A stretch of DNA of 33,966 nucleotides from Alistipes sp. (lineage in GTDB: Bacteria; Bacteroidota; Bacteroidia; Bacteroidales; Rikenellaceae): positions 1-33,966 of the forward strand of contig JAFVRN010000036.1 in assembly GCA_017504265.1 (NCBI GenBank), read 5' to 3'. Of the stretch, positions 12,456 to 33,966 are shown in pieces. The position numbers and the translations under genes are program-made. The notes below the pieces were generated by a model. That model did no database searches and had not been told where the DNA came from. It saw only the letters and a program-made list of their open reading frames with translations. Each line of letters begins with the position of its first letter. Position 1 is the first letter of the stretch.

Positions 12456-12989
12456 TTACTCTACAAATAGCAGACGCTCCGGACCCTCATAGTCGGGTAG
12501 TGGCTTTGGGGTATAGTCGGCATAGCCTACCGCTACGACGTTAAGCACGCTGTAGTGCTGAGGTATCTCGGGCAGAATCTCCTTCACGTAGCTGTCGCTT
12601 GTCTGGCTTTCGGGGTCATCTTGCAGTGTGCGGTACTTGCCCACGTGTACCCAGCACGAAGCCAGGCCCTGGTCTACGAGGGCGAGCTGCAATGTGTTGG
12701 CCATAATTGCGGCATTAATCTCCCACATTGGGCTTGCATCGCTGTCGCCAAGCACTACGATAGCTGCTCCTGCCTCGTCGAGTAGTGACGAGCCGAAGTC
12801 GCGCAGACGCGATAGGGCATGCACCTTGTCTAAGTTGGTTACAGCCATAAGACGCGTAGAGCGTGTATTCTTTGATGACGGAGCAAGAAGTGCTAACTCC
12901 ATAGCAGCACGAAGTTTCTCTATCTCAACGGGTTTACCCGTAAAGCGGCGTGTAGAACGACGCTTCTTTACTACATCCTTAAAATCCAT
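12456..12989 (-). CDS. nitroreductase-family flavoprotein
   Basis: The 177-residue protein has the FMN-binding KKRRSTRRF start (8-16), LLAPSSKNTRS, AIMANTLQLALVDQGLASCWVH and a late VLNVVAVGYAD segment, all typical of the short nitroreductase family. Members reduce nitro compounds, quinones or flavins with NAD(P)H and FMN; the natural substrate is not known. Its start codon sits at the end of a 24-bp tandem repeat that forms the leader, and its promoter overlaps that of the divergent HAD gene. Confidence 0.88.
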   Translation of the reverse strand: MDFKDVVKKRRSTRRFTGKPVEIEKLRAAMELALLAPSSKNTRSTRLMAVTNLDKVHALSRLRDFGSSLLDEAGAAIVVLGDSDASPMWEINAAIMANTLQLALVDQGLASCWVHVGKYRTLQDDPESQTSDSYVKEILPEIPQHYSVLNVVAVGYADYTPKPLPDYEGPERLLFVE

Positions 12990-13046
12990 AGTCGTTATCT
13001 GTTTATATTATTTAGTCGTTATCTGTTTATATTATTTAGTCGTTAT
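12989..13046. repeat. 24-bp tandem repeat forming the nitroreductase leader
   Basis: TAGTCGTTATCTGTTTATATTATT occurs twice without change (12989-13012, 13013-13036), then its first ten bases occur again (13037-13046). On the minus strand the sequence just before the ATG is therefore duplicated twice upstream. Copy number may vary between strains and alter leader length. Confidence 0.95.
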
Positions 13047-22118: not shown

Positions 22119-22247
22119 ATGTTAAATGAGAATTATCAGGCTCCTATGCTCGATATTGTAGGAGTTTTTGTAGAGAGTGGTTTTGCTCTGTCGTCTGTTG
22201 GTGGCGGTTTGGAAAATCCCGATGTAAAAGATGATCAAGATTGGTAG
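22119..22247 (+). CDS. 42-residue peptide, first gene of C10 protease operon
   Basis: A short ATG-initiated frame encodes 42 residues: N-terminal MLNENYQAP, a hydrophobic middle LDIVGVFVE, then SGFALSSVGGG and an acidic tail ending DDQDW. It is placed 30 bp after a good promoter and ends 2 bp before the lipoprotein start, which argues for real translation. I recall that Bacteroidales often have 40-60-residue peptides of this pattern (YxxP, then GFAxS, then an acidic tail with W) ahead of such lipoprotein genes. It has no signal peptide. The triple Gly after SSV could be a leader cleavage site, in which case it would be a secreted peptide; this is speculative. Confidence 0.7.
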   Translation: MLNENYQAPMLDIVGVFVESGFALSSVGGGLENPDVKDDQDW

Positions 22248-22249
22248 TT

Positions 22250-23356
22250 ATGAAGAGAATTATTTTTATGGCTGTCGCACTGCTTGTTGCTACGGCCTGC
22301 TCTAAGAGTAATGTCGAGGAGATGCGTCACGATAGGCTGTCAAAAGATAAGATATATGCCACTATCGCTGATGTAGATACTCGTGTGGTCCTCAACTCCA
22401 AACTTAACACAGTATGGAATGTCGAGGATGAGATTGTTGTTGTCAATAAGGATGGTATTTCGCATTGGCAGTACGATAGTAGTGACAAAAGTCGCTCGGG
22501 TAGCTTCAGCTGCATTGAGGAGATAGCAACCGATCTCTCGGCAATAGAGTTCGACGATATGTCGGTTGCTGTATATGCCGCCAAGAGCCCCTATTATCAG
22601 AACAATCTGGGTAAGTTGCACTTTATATCGGAGGTAGCTGCCCTGCAGAAGTATGAGGTGGATAGCTATGCTTCGGGTATCAACACTATGGTAGCCAATA
22701 GTAGCGATGCTACGTACTACTCCTTTAAGAATGTGCTGGGATACCTGCGCTTGGCTATTAAGGGTGATAAGAGCGTTGAGAGCATAGTGCTTCGCGGTAA
22801 TGACAACGAGCCGCTTGCGGGTGAGTTTACGGTGAGTGCGCTGGATGTTAAGAAGTGGGGTTGGAGCGAGTCTGCGCAGGGGCAGAACATAACGCTCGAC
22901 TGCGGTAGCGAGGGTGTGAAGCTCGATGAGTCGGCCTCTACATACTTCTATTTTGTCCTACCTCCTATGACCTTCGATAATGGCTTTACGGTTGTCATCA
23001 ACTTCACGGATGATAGCTCTGTGGAGCATAGCACCTCGAAGAAGGTTGTCATCGAGCGTAATACCTTACAGCCAATGTCGGTTATCGACATTAGTGGCGG
23101 TGAGGTAACAACGCAGTTTGTTAAGATATACCACAGCGGTACAACTATCTCAGCTCCTGTACTCACCGGTACGGATGACCTCGCCGGATATATCTATTGG
23201 GGTGATGACAATCAGAGTGCTTTGGGTGCAGTTGCATCATATACCTATGACGATGGTGTCGATACTCACGTAATAGAGATTGTGGCTACCGATGCCGAGA
23301 CAATATCGGTCGAGAGCTGCAAGGGTATTTCGCAGATAGATCTGTCTAACTTTTAA
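22250..23356 (+). CDS. fimbrillin-like lipoprotein with C-terminal PKD-like domain
   Basis: From the ATG at 22250 the protein has 368 residues and a lipobox (VATAC, Cys17). The segment TRVVLNSKLNTVWNVEDEI is typical of Mfa-like/fimbrillin-family proteins (TR...W..GD.I pattern), as is the central FKNVLGYLRLAI block. The C-terminal 70 residues contain GYIYWGDDN and end GISQIDLSNF, as in small PKD-like modules of Bacteroidales surface proteins. It may be a fimbrial subunit or a surface adhesin. It is co-transcribed with the peptide (2-bp gap) and the C10 protease (11-bp gap). Confidence 0.75.
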   Translation: MKRIIFMAVALLVATACSKSNVEEMRHDRLSKDKIYATIADVDTRVVLNSKLNTVWNVEDEIVVVNKDGISHWQYDSSDKSRSGSFSCIEEIATDLSAIEFDDMSVAVYAAKSPYYQNNLGKLHFISEVAALQKYEVDSYASGINTMVANSSDATYYSFKNVLGYLRLAIKGDKSVESIVLRGNDNEPLAGEFTVSALDVKKWGWSESAQGQNITLDCGSEGVKLDESASTYFYFVLPPMTFDNGFTVVINFTDDSSVEHSTSKKVVIERNTLQPMSVIDISGGEVTTQFVKIYHSGTTISAPVLTGTDDLAGYIYWGDDNQSALGAVASYTYDDGVDTHVIEIVATDAETISVESCKGISQIDLSNF

Positions 23357-23367
23357 TCCGATGTGTT

Positions 23368-25170
23368 ATGAAAAAGATAACTCTTTTACTTCTATTAACC
23401 ATAACGTCGCTGGGACTCTTTGCCGCACCTATTGATGAGAGCCGTGCACGTGAGATTGCGGAGAGCTTCTTCAGCGGTTACTCTACACGAGGCTCGTCGA
23501 GTGACGTAGATTTGGCATGGTCGGGTAGCAGCTTCCTCGCTCAACCATTTGGCACGACGGATGCCGATGCTACACTTTATATATATAACAGAGCTTCGAA
23601 CGATGGATATGTTATCGTGTCGGGCGACGATAACACAGCTCCTATTGTTGCTTTCTCGTTGGATCGTGCCTTTGATGTGGAGAATATGCCATTTACCACC
23701 AGGCGACTTCTCGAGGCATGGAACGAGCAGATTGCTGCGGCACGTGCAGGTCTGATCCCGCCCGTAAAACTTGCCTCGCAGGGAAATGTTGTCAAGAAGT
23801 ACGATACGGCTCAGTGGAGTCAGTTTACCCCATATAACGATGAGTGCCCTATTATCGATGGCTATCGGGCTGTTACGGGCTGTGTAGCTACGGCAATGTC
23901 TATCATATGCCACTACAATAAGTGGCCAAAGGAGGTTAGCGGCGAAACGCCGGCATATACCTATGATGATATGGTAGACAAAAATACGAAACGTAGTATA
24001 GCTGCCAATCCGCTTGGCCCGACATACGACTATGATAATATGCTTATGGGTTATTATGATTCGAATGGTTATTCTAAGTATAATGAAGTTCAGGGAGCTG
24101 CCGTAGCACGTCTTATGCACGATATGGGTACCTCCGTAGAGATGATGTATCACCATACCGGTTCGGGAGCTTTTGATGATATGGTGCCCAAGGCCTTCTA
24201 TACCTATTTCAAGTACTCTAAGCAGGCTACATATCTCCCACATGGAGAGATGAGCGAAGAGAAGTGGACTGCCATGTTACAGGAGAATCTCGCTGCATAT
24301 GGCCCTACATATTTCAGTGGTGCTGGTGAGGAGGGTGGCCACGCCTTTGTATTGGATGGCTATACCGATGCCGGATACTTCCATATAAACTATGGCTGGG
24401 AAGGTGAAGGTAATGGCTACTATCTTCTTCCCAAGATAGATTTTTATGCGTATCAGGGCGCAGTATTCTATCTCGAGCCCGATAAGGATGGAACGTCAAG
24501 CTTCCGTGACTTTTTGGTGTTGCGCTATTATGACGACTCTTATAAGGGTATCACCACCGATACCACAGAGTATGTTAAGGGTGAAGCTTTTAGAGTGTGG
24601 ATTGGAAATATTACTAATTTGGGTAATACAGCCTTTACGGGTGATGTCGCCTTGGTTTTATGCGATAAAGATGGAGAGGTTAAACAGACACTGCGCAACT
24701 ATAAGTTTAGTGGCAGTGATAAAATTGATGTGCATTATGGCACCATCTTGGGCCCTGTAACGGTAACAATCAGCAAGGATTTGGCCAAGGGAGATCGTCT
24801 GCGTATCTACTATAAGGGTGCTAATTCCGCAGAGTGGCAGTGGGCCACGGCCTATGACGCAAACGCCGTAGATGAGATTATTGTGTGTGATACCGAACAG
24901 GAAGAGCCCGAAGAGCCCGAAGAGCCGGCAACACCTATCGACGAGGCACTATCATTTACATACTCAAAGGTAGACAAGACCATTGCTATCACATCACAGA
25001 TAGATGTTGATTATAGGTTGGTGTACGGTACTAATACCAATATTGAATATAAAGTGATTAAGGCCGGTGAGAGTGCTACGATTGATTGCTCTTCGTTGCC
25101 TGCGGGTAGTTATACCTTCACCTTTAACAATGCTACATCGGAGAGTTATGTGCTTAAATTAGAGCTGTAA
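23368..25170 (+). CDS. C10-family (streptopain-like) cysteine protease
   Basis: The 600-residue secreted protease has a signal peptide (about 1-20), a propeptide (about 21-140) and a peptidase C10 domain with the nucleophile in AVTGCVATAM (Cys172) and the catalytic His in GGHAFVLDGY (His325), followed by NYGWEGEGNGYY. A beta-rich region follows, then an EEPEEPEEP linker and a last 75 residues that end LPAGSYTFTFNNATSESYVLKLEL-like, resembling type IX sorting or Ig-like tails. Streptopain and Bacteroides Bfp proteases are relatives; they are activated by propeptide removal. No separate staphostatin-like inhibitor gene is visible unless the preceding lipoprotein acts so. Confidence 0.9.
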   Translation: MKKITLLLLLTITSLGLFAAPIDESRAREIAESFFSGYSTRGSSSDVDLAWSGSSFLAQPFGTTDADATLYIYNRASNDGYVIVSGDDNTAPIVAFSLDRAFDVENMPFTTRRLLEAWNEQIAAARAGLIPPVKLASQGNVVKKYDTAQWSQFTPYNDECPIIDGYRAVTGCVATAMSIICHYNKWPKEVSGETPAYTYDDMVDKNTKRSIAANPLGPTYDYDNMLMGYYDSNGYSKYNEVQGAAVARLMHDMGTSVEMMYHHTGSGAFDDMVPKAFYTYFKYSKQATYLPHGEMSEEKWTAMLQENLAAYGPTYFSGAGEEGGHAFVLDGYTDAGYFHINYGWEGEGNGYYLLPKIDFYAYQGAVFYLEPDKDGTSSFRDFLVLRYYDDSYKGITTDTTEYVKGEAFRVWIGNITNLGNTAFTGDVALVLCDKDGEVKQTLRNYKFSGSDKIDVHYGTILGPVTVTISKDLAKGDRLRIYYKGANSAEWQWATAYDANAVDEIIVCDTEQEEPEEPEEPATPIDEALSFTYSKVDKTIAITSQIDVDYRLVYGTNTNIEYKVIKAGESATIDCSSLPAGSYTFTFNNATSESYVLKLEL

Positions 25171-31602: not shown

Positions 31603-33624
31603 ATGATGAATAAATTTTTAGGAATTTTTGCTATGGGAACATTGTTACTTACCTCATGTGCTACGACCGTGGAGCAGGAGGGTGAGCAGCCTTGGATTGT
31701 TGATCGTTTCGATGACATCAAGGTTATCCGTTACGAGGTCCCAGGATTTGAGTCGCTTACTCTTGAGGAGAAGGAGTTAATCTACTATCTATCAGAGGCA
31801 GCTAAATGTGGACGTGACATCTTGTTCGACCAGAATTTTAAGTACAACCTCTCGATACGTCGCACTCTCGAAAGCATATATACTGCATCAGAGAAGCGTG
31901 ATGGCGATGAGTTCAAGGCTTTTGAGAAGTATCTTAAAAAGGTGTGGTTTGCTAATGGTATCCACCACCACTATTCCAACGATAAGTTTACTCCTGAGTT
32001 CTCTGAGGAGTGGTTCCGTGAGCAGTTGGCTAAGTATATCAACGACGATAACCGTCATATTGAGGATGATTTTCTCTGCGAGATTCTCTTCAACAAGGAG
32101 CTTTATGCATCGCGTCTTAACCAGACAGCCGGTGTAGATGTTGTCAAGGCCTCGGCTAACAACTACTATGAGGGAGTATCACAAGAGGAGGTTGAGGCAT
32201 TCTATGCAGGTATGGTTGCTGCCGATGCCAATAATCCTGAGCCTATATCGTATGGTCTTAACTCGAAGCTTATGCGCGATGAGAATGGTAAGATTGTCGA
32301 GAAGGTGTGGAAGATAGGTGGTATGTACTCGCCAGCTATTGAGCAGATTGTATATTGGTTGGAGAAGGCTGCCACGGTAGCTAAGGGTGAGCAGAAGGCA
32401 ACCATTGAGGCTCTTATCAAGTACTACAATACAGGCGATTTGAAGGATTTCGACGATTATAGCGTTCTTTGGGTTAAGGATACAGCCTCGAATGTAGATT
32501 TCGTAAATGGCTTTATCGAGAACTATGGTGATCCTCTTGGCCGTAAGGCATCGTGGGAGTCGGTAGTTAATTTCCGCGACGAGGAGGCTTGCCACCGTAC
32601 CGAGATTATGGCTGCCAATGCACAGTGGTTCGAGGATAACGCTCCTATCAACCCTGCATATCGCAAGGAGGAGGTTAAGGGCGTATCGGCTAAGGTTATC
32701 ACCGTAGCTATGCTCGGTGGCGATTGCTACCCTGCAACAGCCATCGGTATCAACCTTCCTAATGCAGACTGGATTCGTAAGGAGCATGGCTCTAAGTCGG
32801 TTACCATAGACAATATCACCTATGCCTATGATAAGGCAGCTCAGGGTAACGGCTTTGCCGAGGAGTTCGTACTCCGTGAGGAGGATCGTGAGCGTATGGC
32901 TAAGTGGGGTAAGCTCAGCGATGACCTCCACACCGACCTTCACGAGTGCCTTGGCCACGGCTCGGGACAGCTTGCCCCTGGTACTAAGGGCGATGAGCTT
33001 CGTACCTACTCATCTACATTGGAGGAGGCACGTGCCGACCTCTTTGCGCTCTACTATCTTGGCGACGAGAAGCTTATCGAGATTGGTCTTATCCCAACAT
33101 TGGATGTAGCTTGGGCGCAGTATAGCAAGTATATCATGAACGGTATGATGACTCAGCTATCACGTATCGAGCCTGGTAAGAATGTAGAGGAGTCTCATAT
33201 GCGTAATCGTAAGCTTATTGCTGAGTGGTGCTATGAGAAGGGTAAGGCGGAGAATGTTATCGAGCTTGTGGAGAAGGATGGTAAGCACTATGTCGTTGTA
33301 AACGACTTTGAGCGTCTGCGTGAGCTCTTTGGAGAGCTTCTTTGCGAGGTGCAGCGCATCAAGTCTGAGGGCGACTATGAGGCTTGCCGTGCTTTGGTTG
33401 AGGACTATGCCGTTGTTGTAGACCCAGCTATCCACGCTGAGGTTATCGCACGTAACAATGCTCTTAACATTGAGCCTTATGGCGGTTTCGTTAATCCCGA
33501 GTACGAGCTTGTTACCGATGATGCCGGTAATGTCGTAGATGTTAAGATAAGCTATCCTGCCAACTATATCGAGCAGCATCTACACTATGGTAAGGATTAT
33601 TCGTTCCTTCCCTCACTAAACTAA
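31603..33624 (+). CDS. dipeptidyl peptidase III lipoprotein (M49)
   Basis: The 673-residue zinc peptidase removes dipeptides from peptide N-termini. The metal motif HECLGH is at 447-452 and the second motif EEARAD at 474-479, very near the positions known for the Bacteroides thetaiotaomicron DPP III. A lipobox LTSC (Cys19) shows membrane anchoring. It is complete; its TAA stop at 33622-33624 overlaps the first two bases of a long-hairpin repeat, so the transcript ends in that structure. The start is the first of two adjacent ATGs. Confidence 0.95.
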   Translation: MMNKFLGIFAMGTLLLTSCATTVEQEGEQPWIVDRFDDIKVIRYEVPGFESLTLEEKELIYYLSEAAKCGRDILFDQNFKYNLSIRRTLESIYTASEKRDGDEFKAFEKYLKKVWFANGIHHHYSNDKFTPEFSEEWFREQLAKYINDDNRHIEDDFLCEILFNKELYASRLNQTAGVDVVKASANNYYEGVSQEEVEAFYAGMVAADANNPEPISYGLNSKLMRDENGKIVEKVWKIGGMYSPAIEQIVYWLEKAATVAKGEQKATIEALIKYYNTGDLKDFDDYSVLWVKDTASNVDFVNGFIENYGDPLGRKASWESVVNFRDEEACHRTEIMAANAQWFEDNAPINPAYRKEEVKGVSAKVITVAMLGGDCYPATAIGINLPNADWIRKEHGSKSVTIDNITYAYDKAAQGNGFAEEFVLREEDRERMAKWGKLSDDLHTDLHECLGHGSGQLAPGTKGDELRTYSSTLEEARADLFALYYLGDEKLIEIGLIPTLDVAWAQYSKYIMNGMMTQLSRIEPGKNVEESHMRNRKLIAEWCYEKGKAENVIELVEKDGKHYVVVNDFERLRELFGELLCEVQRIKSEGDYEACRALVEDYAVVVDPAIHAEVIARNNALNIEPYGGFVNPEYELVTDDAGNVVDVKISYPANYIEQHLHYGKDYSFLPSLN

Positions 33625-33748
33625 TTTTTGTGATAAGGGGTCATCTGCGACCTCTCAATCATTGCCCCGAATGGAATGTACGCTAAGTACTATCCATCCG
33701 GGGCAATTTCTTAATCGAGGCCACAGCTAACCCCTTCTGACAAAAATT
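33623..33748. repeat. 126-bp long-hairpin repeat, copy B
   Basis: Nearly identical to copy A (three differences in 126, two of them in the apical loop: GCTAA here, GTCAA in A). Ends are AATTTTTGT and ACAAAAATT. It begins within the stop codon of the DPP III gene and is the first unit of a head-to-tail array. Confidence 0.9.
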
Positions 33749-33868
33749 TATGTGATAGCGGCGTATTAGCGACGCTTCAGTCCAAAGGGCGAATGGGAAA
33801 TACGCTGAGTATGTCCCATCCGCCCTTTCTCGTGTCAGCGCCACTACTGCGCCACTCTGACAAAAATT
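33745..33868. repeat. 124-bp long-hairpin repeat, copy C
   Basis: Shares AATT with copy B at the junction. The constant motifs GTGATA, GCGAC, GAATGG, CCATCC, GCCAC and TCTGAC are kept in the same order. The intervening stems differ from A/B by compensatory changes (AGGGGT/ACCCCT becomes GCGGCG/CGCCAC; TTGCCCC/GGGGCAA becomes AAAGGGC/GCCCTTT; apical GTAC/GTAC becomes ATAC/GTAT). Confidence 0.9.
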
Positions 33869-33966
33869 TTCGTGATAAGGGGTCGATTGCTGCCCCTAAC
33901 AAAAAATGGCGACAATGGGACGTACGCTAAGTACTACCCATCGTCGCCATTTTTGCCGAGTGTGGC
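33865..33966. repeat. long-hairpin repeat, copy D (cut by window end)
   Basis: Shares AATT with copy C and begins AATTTTCGTGATA. The inner stem is AAAAATGGCGACAATGGG against CCCATCGTCGCCATTTTT, again with one A-C mismatch five bases from the hairpin end, and the loop is GTAC-GCTAA-GTAC. The outer 3' arm lies beyond the window. Confidence 0.85.

Follow-up and report, generated by a model that had tools for sequence, protein, structure and literature searches.

The hairpin units that lie near both ends of a contig from an Alistipes species appear to be a Bacteroidales branch of the ERIC (IRU) superfamily, that is, non-autonomous hairpin elements of about 125 bp whose copies spread inside genomes and lodge at gene 3' ends; we give this reading a probability of roughly 0.6. 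The attribution follows from the matches of ERIC copies both to a model of units from the order (R3) and to a structure-blind profile, from the shared strand of the stronger fold, and from a common orientation relative to stop codons. The DNA analysed, hereafter the window, is a whole contig of 33,966 nucleotides, contig 30 of the 48 that make up the 1.83-Mb home genome. ERIC-like repeats of about 125 bases lie behind genes in many gut bacteria of the Bacteroidales, and no report of ERIC-type elements outside the Gammaproteobacteria was found in the open part of the PMC literature, where few subscription journals are represented.

Units in the window and the home genome

The hairpin array described in the sequence-only reading is real: four copies lie at the places given, three of them (B, C and D) head to tail with start-to-start distances of 122 and 120 and with AATT common to neighbours. 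Unit A (15-140) is complete and folds best on the (-) strand, antisense to the upstream gene (-72 versus -55 kcal/mol); model R1, seeded with ten stem types of the window's genus, scores 126.7 bits on that strand versus 68.3 on the opposite one. Unit B (33623-33748, (-) strand), also complete, belongs to the same type A, scores 129.9 bits with R1 and is 98% identical to copy A. Unit C (33745-33868, (-) strand) is a complete copy of another stem type (-63.1 versus -52.7 kcal/mol) and provides seed row B of R1, and unit D (33865-33966, (-) strand), of a third stem type, ends at the contig end and scores 66.3 bits as a truncated copy (L020 1743-1844). What the earlier reading had missed are the stop codons at the starts of B and A, along with the strand of the selected fold. 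Unit B begins at the second base of the TAA (33622-33624, (+) strand) that closes a gene for an M49-family peptidase (31603-33624), and unit A starts inside a TAA at 13-15 on the (+) strand, offset -2, which ends a 196-codon ORF with its body on contig C13. That contig and the window start overlap by 140 bases, and the C-terminus of the gene product presumably resembles elongation factor P.

Behind unit A, at 141-171 on the (+) strand, a pattern search finds the tail ACCGCTGATTATCCCGAGTGTTG, which comes after the final unit in many of the home genome's arrays; a 22-base pattern with at most 2 mismatches occurs at 34 places in that genome, versus 0 for the reversed control. Sequence inspection reveals a 9-bp minisatellite, (TGTGGGTTC)n, and then a second, partly complementary 9-bp run, (CCCATTTGA)n, as a tandem repeat block at 170-294 on the (+) strand, which is probably part of the intergenic block and not of the unit itself. 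Short tandem repeats with two complementary runs often end the intergenic block behind units, in the window as well as at L110, L114 and L188, and make up a second large hairpin; the repeat varies by species, with the 9-bp TGTGGGTTC being the form in the window. Elsewhere in the window, a C10-family peptidase with an N-terminal Spi-type inhibitor domain is encoded at 23368-25170, preceded by an ORF without a Pfam match (22241-23356), and a perfect 24-bp tandem repeat of 2.4 copies lies between two divergent genes (12989-13046).

In the home genome, R1 combined with end motifs, applied to stretches fetched around matches, yields 73 units in 45 loci, of which 25 are single, 13 double, 6 triple and 1 quadruple. 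The true number of units is slightly lower because overlapping contig ends were counted twice, C13:1-126 and copy A being one locus present on two contigs. The units are 123-128 bp long in a list of 64 rows, which includes one false entry (C4:11732) and some long entries that span a remnant. Sequences at least 96% identical to copy A occur at 25 places in different loci, one of these being copy A again, and such near-identical copies stand behind unrelated genes. Many arrays are located at contig ends, probably because the repeats broke the assembly, which would explain the contig ends of the home assembly.

Among 22 copies of type A, with the first base left out, 22 variant cells fall in five tip-loop positions versus 12 in the 120 others, types having been assigned by short motifs with some copies left out. 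Such concentration is expected if the tip is free or opened in the cell. Some units (L038 1664-1787, that is, C24:26863-26986 of genome G000, together with the type C copies) are chimeras, with arms and tip from different types, and look as if recombination between units occurs at the tip.

The selected fold and its strand

All four copies in the window fold beyond dinucleotide-shuffled controls (z of -9.1, -8.6, -5.9 and -5.0 for A, B, C and D; 0/200 shuffles each), although D folds in the inner hairpin only because its 3' part is missing. Their stems differ in sequence while pairing is kept, as had been read from the sequence. The A-C mismatches of that reading call for revision: in both units folded on two strands, A and C, the complementary strand has the stronger fold because the A-C mismatches become G-U pairs there. 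The same asymmetry holds across the genus. Among the matches listed, 89 non-redundant units, read on the antisense strand with respect to the upstream gene, have 370 G-U and 37 A-C in 3854 pair cells. These units stem from the first 80 of at least 116 stretches (L137-L216), where 150 aligned matches of 219 reduce to 107 places with one strand each and to 89 below 90% identity. The pattern used for fetching fixes the G-U pair of the tip and thereby gives 79 of the 370 G-U and 1 of the 37 A-C cells; without this pair, 291 G-U versus 36 A-C are counted among the listed matches. Order-wide, 49 sequences show 182 G-U versus 21 A-C in 1817 pair cells, all these counts leaning toward the favoured strand, to the models of which the alignments were fitted. 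With G-U about ten times as common as A-C, the antisense strand appears to be the one selected to fold. The R1 score on this strand is about twice that on the other, both being significant because the element is nearly palindromic.

Covariation between the arms is strong. Paired cells amount to 92.7% versus 65.4 in shuffled alignments, and covariation is 0.706 versus 0.202 when shuffled and about 0.1 with slid partners; in both cases, 0/500 shuffles reach the observed value. The 12 seed units give 0.465 versus 0.181, which amounts to compensatory change among copies of one genome. Abundant copies elsewhere and covariation between them had been set beforehand as the test on which the claim of structural selection would stand or fall, and both were found. 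The proposal that selection acts on structure, and that the units accordingly work as a folded RNA or as single-stranded DNA, is borne out to the extent that the pairing is kept by selection.

On the folded strand, the unit consists of a terminal stem of 7-9 pairs, a 3x3 internal loop and a long rod with further internal loops. The rod is capped by an nTAC-loop-GTAn tip, in which the basal G-U pair is fixed and the loop varies. In other families, the tip reads GGAGC-nTAC-n4/5-GTAn-GTGAC; G-A/A-G mismatches adjoin it in most families and in ERIC, and are absent in the window's genus. In the terminal stem, 8/8 pairs show change on both sides: its sequence is free and its pairing is kept, which argues against recognition of the terminal sequence.

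Position at stop codons

The units have a nearly fixed place relative to genes. In the home genome, the first unit stands at the stop codon of a gene in 40 of 43 testable loci (-24 to +8, ORFs of at least 80 codons), and in 34 of these 40 it starts at -5 to -1 from the stop. A second set, the first 80 of at least 116 stretches, from named assemblies titled Alistipes or Rikenellaceae, behaves alike: among the loci listed, 62 of 74 first units start between -22 and +8 relative to a stop that closes an ORF of at least 100 codons, the commonest stop being TAA at -2 (27 loci), and five first units use the TGA within their own GTGATA as the stop. When the listed arrays of the genus are collapsed, a stop is found at the gene-side end in 62/70 versus 4/70 at the other end, with 8.0% at random. 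Of the listed arrays away from edges, 56 of 62 follow a gene of the same sense. The next gene downstream of these 62 lies at a variable distance; it is co-directional in 36 cases and convergent in 26.

Occupancy varies between species behind the same gene. The end of the M49 peptidase gene was readable in 14 of the 30 orthologues fetched; at the stop codon, G000 and G067 carry units that differ in type, in G051 a worn unit lies further downstream, and no unit was found in the 227 bases downstream in, for example, G055, G011 and G056. Some way behind this gene in G046, inspection by eye alone shows a hairpin (L283) that has the other tip (CTCATTTAC..GTAAACTGCG). Comparisons of L188 with L138 and of L213 with L240 likewise show an array or unit present and absent behind the same gene. 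TA is common before units and not after them, the filled and empty pairs coming from species too diverged to fix the insertion point, and no target duplication was found among these strongly diverged pairs. ERIC has a TA target duplication and, in Yersinia, is intergenic, standing beside stop codons in one orientation.

Relation to ERIC and means of spread

R1 matches at least 95 of 151 sampled genomes of the genus and at least 4 of 295 genomes of the order sample, the home genome included in each; as strict filters were applied and the number of scored candidates was capped, all counts of matched genomes are lower bounds. R2 was made with 11 units from three other families that R1 found in the order sample. 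Counting its seed genomes, it matches at least 66 of 393 genomes and at least 48 of 207 genera of the order; at E 1e-4 it matches none of the other 344 genomes of a phylum sample. R3, for which 49 sequences of the order and none from a proteobacterium were used, reaches further at E 0.001, with matches in at least 5 of 276 others in a phylum sample, all outside the class, at 35-49 bits. These five out-of-class matches bear the same tip, and for one of the five (L366) the opposite strand gives the better fold. Rfam gave 0 matches over the gathering score in the window and nothing over the units in further scans, one of them with E up to 1. Viral contigs hold 0 exact matches of the genus pattern and 1 match of the other tip pattern, which R3 recognises as a full unit (L364 4524-4648, 85.5 bits, on a contig from a viral collection that may be provirus or host DNA).

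The tip of the other families resembles that of ERIC, the core of which is present in 5375 of 5426 E. coli genomes. The best match of R3 is ERIC in 7/7 distinct copies, over the whole model and on the same strand, with E-values of 1.3e-8 to 9.4e-4 that are rough because calibration was short. The E. coli copies beside ybhI (E 6.2e-6) and pgk (4.1e-5; L358 is the pgk site again) score 32.2 and 28.7 bits versus 10.7 for the next match, and a model of the opposite strand with identical pairing scores no more than 6.2 bits on E. coli ERIC. In five other Enterobacterales the scores are 44.3 to 23.5 bits (K. aerogenes, 1.3e-8; Rahnella, 1.8e-6; Proteus, 2.8e-6; K. michiganensis, 1e-4; Citrobacter, 9.4e-4). 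R2 reaches ERIC with E 5e-4 to 1.1e-3, and R1 does not find it (best overlap 5.6 bits, one copy, E 9.2). Judged from these comparisons, the link to ERIC runs through the other families and not through the window's genus, which would be a lineage of the superfamily that has diverged at the tip. With the structure-blind profile, 6 of 7 ERIC copies outscore every one of their 300 pair-preserving decoys and align nearly in register, the Citrobacter copy having a score of 0. The aligned core comprises only 24-52 positions, so that convergence on one recogniser is possible; common descent seems the simplest reading of the sequence likeness.

The resemblance extends to the general plan: about 127 bp in one long hairpin, a 7-bp terminal stem followed by a 3x3 internal loop, and the nTAC/GTAn tip with G-U at its base. 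In addition, 7/7 ERIC copies fold better on the strand of the model. Stop codons are adjoined in the orientation of the units by 3 of 7 ERIC copies (ybhI, potI and an ABC-transporter gene of Rahnella), and 1 of 7 has the stop at the opposite end; in the other families, too, the position is weaker than in the window's genus (15/32). ERIC differs in having been described from another phylum, and the terminal sequence is not conserved between the two. The window's genus further stands apart through its changed tip without G-A mismatches, its head-to-tail arrays with 120-122 spacing, and its nearly invariable position at stop codons. ERIC, which the sequence-only reading did not name, is a better fit than the REP/RAYT or attC systems.

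If the units are indeed mobile kin of ERIC, new copies would be made by a trans-acting factor that recognises the folded strand rather than the terminal sequence, and a factor reading the folded strand fits a terminal stem with free sequence and kept pairing. A unit that inserts at the TA of a stop codon would leave a stop, because it begins with A, so that TAA is recreated, or else offers the TGA inside GTGATA; the single orientation would derive from selection or from the insertion step. Once in place, a unit would give the mRNA a large 3' hairpin and may alter its decay, by analogy with ERIC at the 3' end of Yersinia genes, the effect of which on mRNA decay is reported in a review (PMC10969869).

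The genomic evidence bears on other accounts as well. That the units are not mobile at all and belong to the host, as a cis-acting 3'-end structure or an antisense RNA from the downstream side, selected gene by gene and homogenised by gene conversion, is unlikely, even though the near-fixed position and orientation at stop codons, the compensatory change between copies within one genome and the clustering of type A variation in the tip loop would all suit such an element, as would the share of G-U among the listed matches, about 10% of pair cells, which is usual for RNA. This account is hard to reconcile with the differing presence at the same gene between species and with near-identical copies behind unrelated genes; the selected fold, moreover, is not that of the mRNA, and a motif search on the far side revealed nothing beyond a weak T-G-G-G-T, so that no promoter for an antisense RNA is seen. 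Still less probable is a MITE mobilised by a DDE transposase through binding to its terminal inverted repeats as duplex DNA. The inverted repeats and the TA before most units would be accounted for, and ERIC is placed among the MITEs, as one of Enterobacteriaceae and Vibrionaceae, in a review (PMC10969869); yet the sequence of the terminal 7-9 pairs is free to vary as long as they pair, which makes a transposase binding duplex ends unlikely, and no insertion sequence with such ends was found in at least 116 loci, the sole candidate (L165) being without a transposase.

A SINE-like retroelement, with an antisense RNA reverse transcribed from the gene side, is highly improbable. Short remnants of the gene side only, ahead of a full unit at offsets of -20 to -24, occur at 5 loci and favour this model, whereas over at least 116 loci of the genus strict motifs find 49 far-end-only versus 22 gene-side-only remnants (109 full units). 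Reverse transcriptase genes, suggested earlier as possible partners of the arrays, are present in 49/151 genomes of the genus, but none was found in the home genome (90% complete) or in the unit-rich genomes G011, G017, G021 and G022; the wider remnant count and the missing enzyme together mostly refute this mechanism. We attach slightly less probability again to REP/RAYT elements or integron attC-type sites working as single-stranded DNA, the likeness raised by the sequence-only reading. Both attC and REP are hairpins behind stop codons with one strand preferred, and an attC site, like the units, is an imperfect hairpin after a gene with one active strand. The units, however, adjoin directly or about 20 bp apart with no gene cassettes between them, the R-box motifs of attC are absent, and the lack of an integrase, RAYT or reverse transcriptase in the window that had been noted holds for the 29 ORFs scanned with Pfam, which likewise include no tyrosine or other recombinase. 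The REP likeness fares no better, as the Y1 (HUH) transposase of RAYT type is found in 2/151 genomes of the genus and in none of the home contigs. REP, BIME and REPIN sequences are palindromic repeats behind genes, some in arrays (PMC3733652), but REPs measure 20-40 bp and carry a GTAG or CGTC tag, against about 125 bp in the units. The BrickBuilt MITE of Porphyromonas gingivalis, also from the Bacteroidales, is intergenic and hairpin-forming and has a short tandem repeat, as the tail block does; it is set apart by its description as 23-nt direct repeats at 49-591 nt from genes (PMC4596501), whereas the units begin at the stop codon.

ERIC repeats have been used for strain typing for decades, and to our knowledge the way in which they spread is unsolved. 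Kin in the Bacteroidales with many diverged copies provide variation that ERIC alone could not, which shows that the fold of one strand is kept, and the terminal sequence is not, and points to the positions that a recogniser likely sees, so that the question of the mobiliser of ERIC becomes testable in two phyla at once. A more speculative extension, which we regard as doubtful, is that folded elements form an ancient class spanning the Gammaproteobacteria and several classes of Bacteroidota, with ERIC as one of its twigs. The core of these elements (3x3 loop, G-A mismatches, G-U pair, nTAC/GTAn tip, antisense strand) would be read in single-stranded form, possibly as RNA, by a conserved factor of the host that would need no dedicated transposase to copy it to stop codons.

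A search for an autonomous element with unit ends in at least 116 loci of 0.8-8 kb gave one candidate, which proved to be a unit interrupted at the tip. At this locus (L165 100-2369), about 2.2 kb without a transposase by Pfam is inserted near the tip. It contains a 353-aa ORF that Pfam does not match and, in an 85-aa ORF, a nucleotidyltransferase domain (PF01909); the insert may be mobile and target the tip, or may be cargo.
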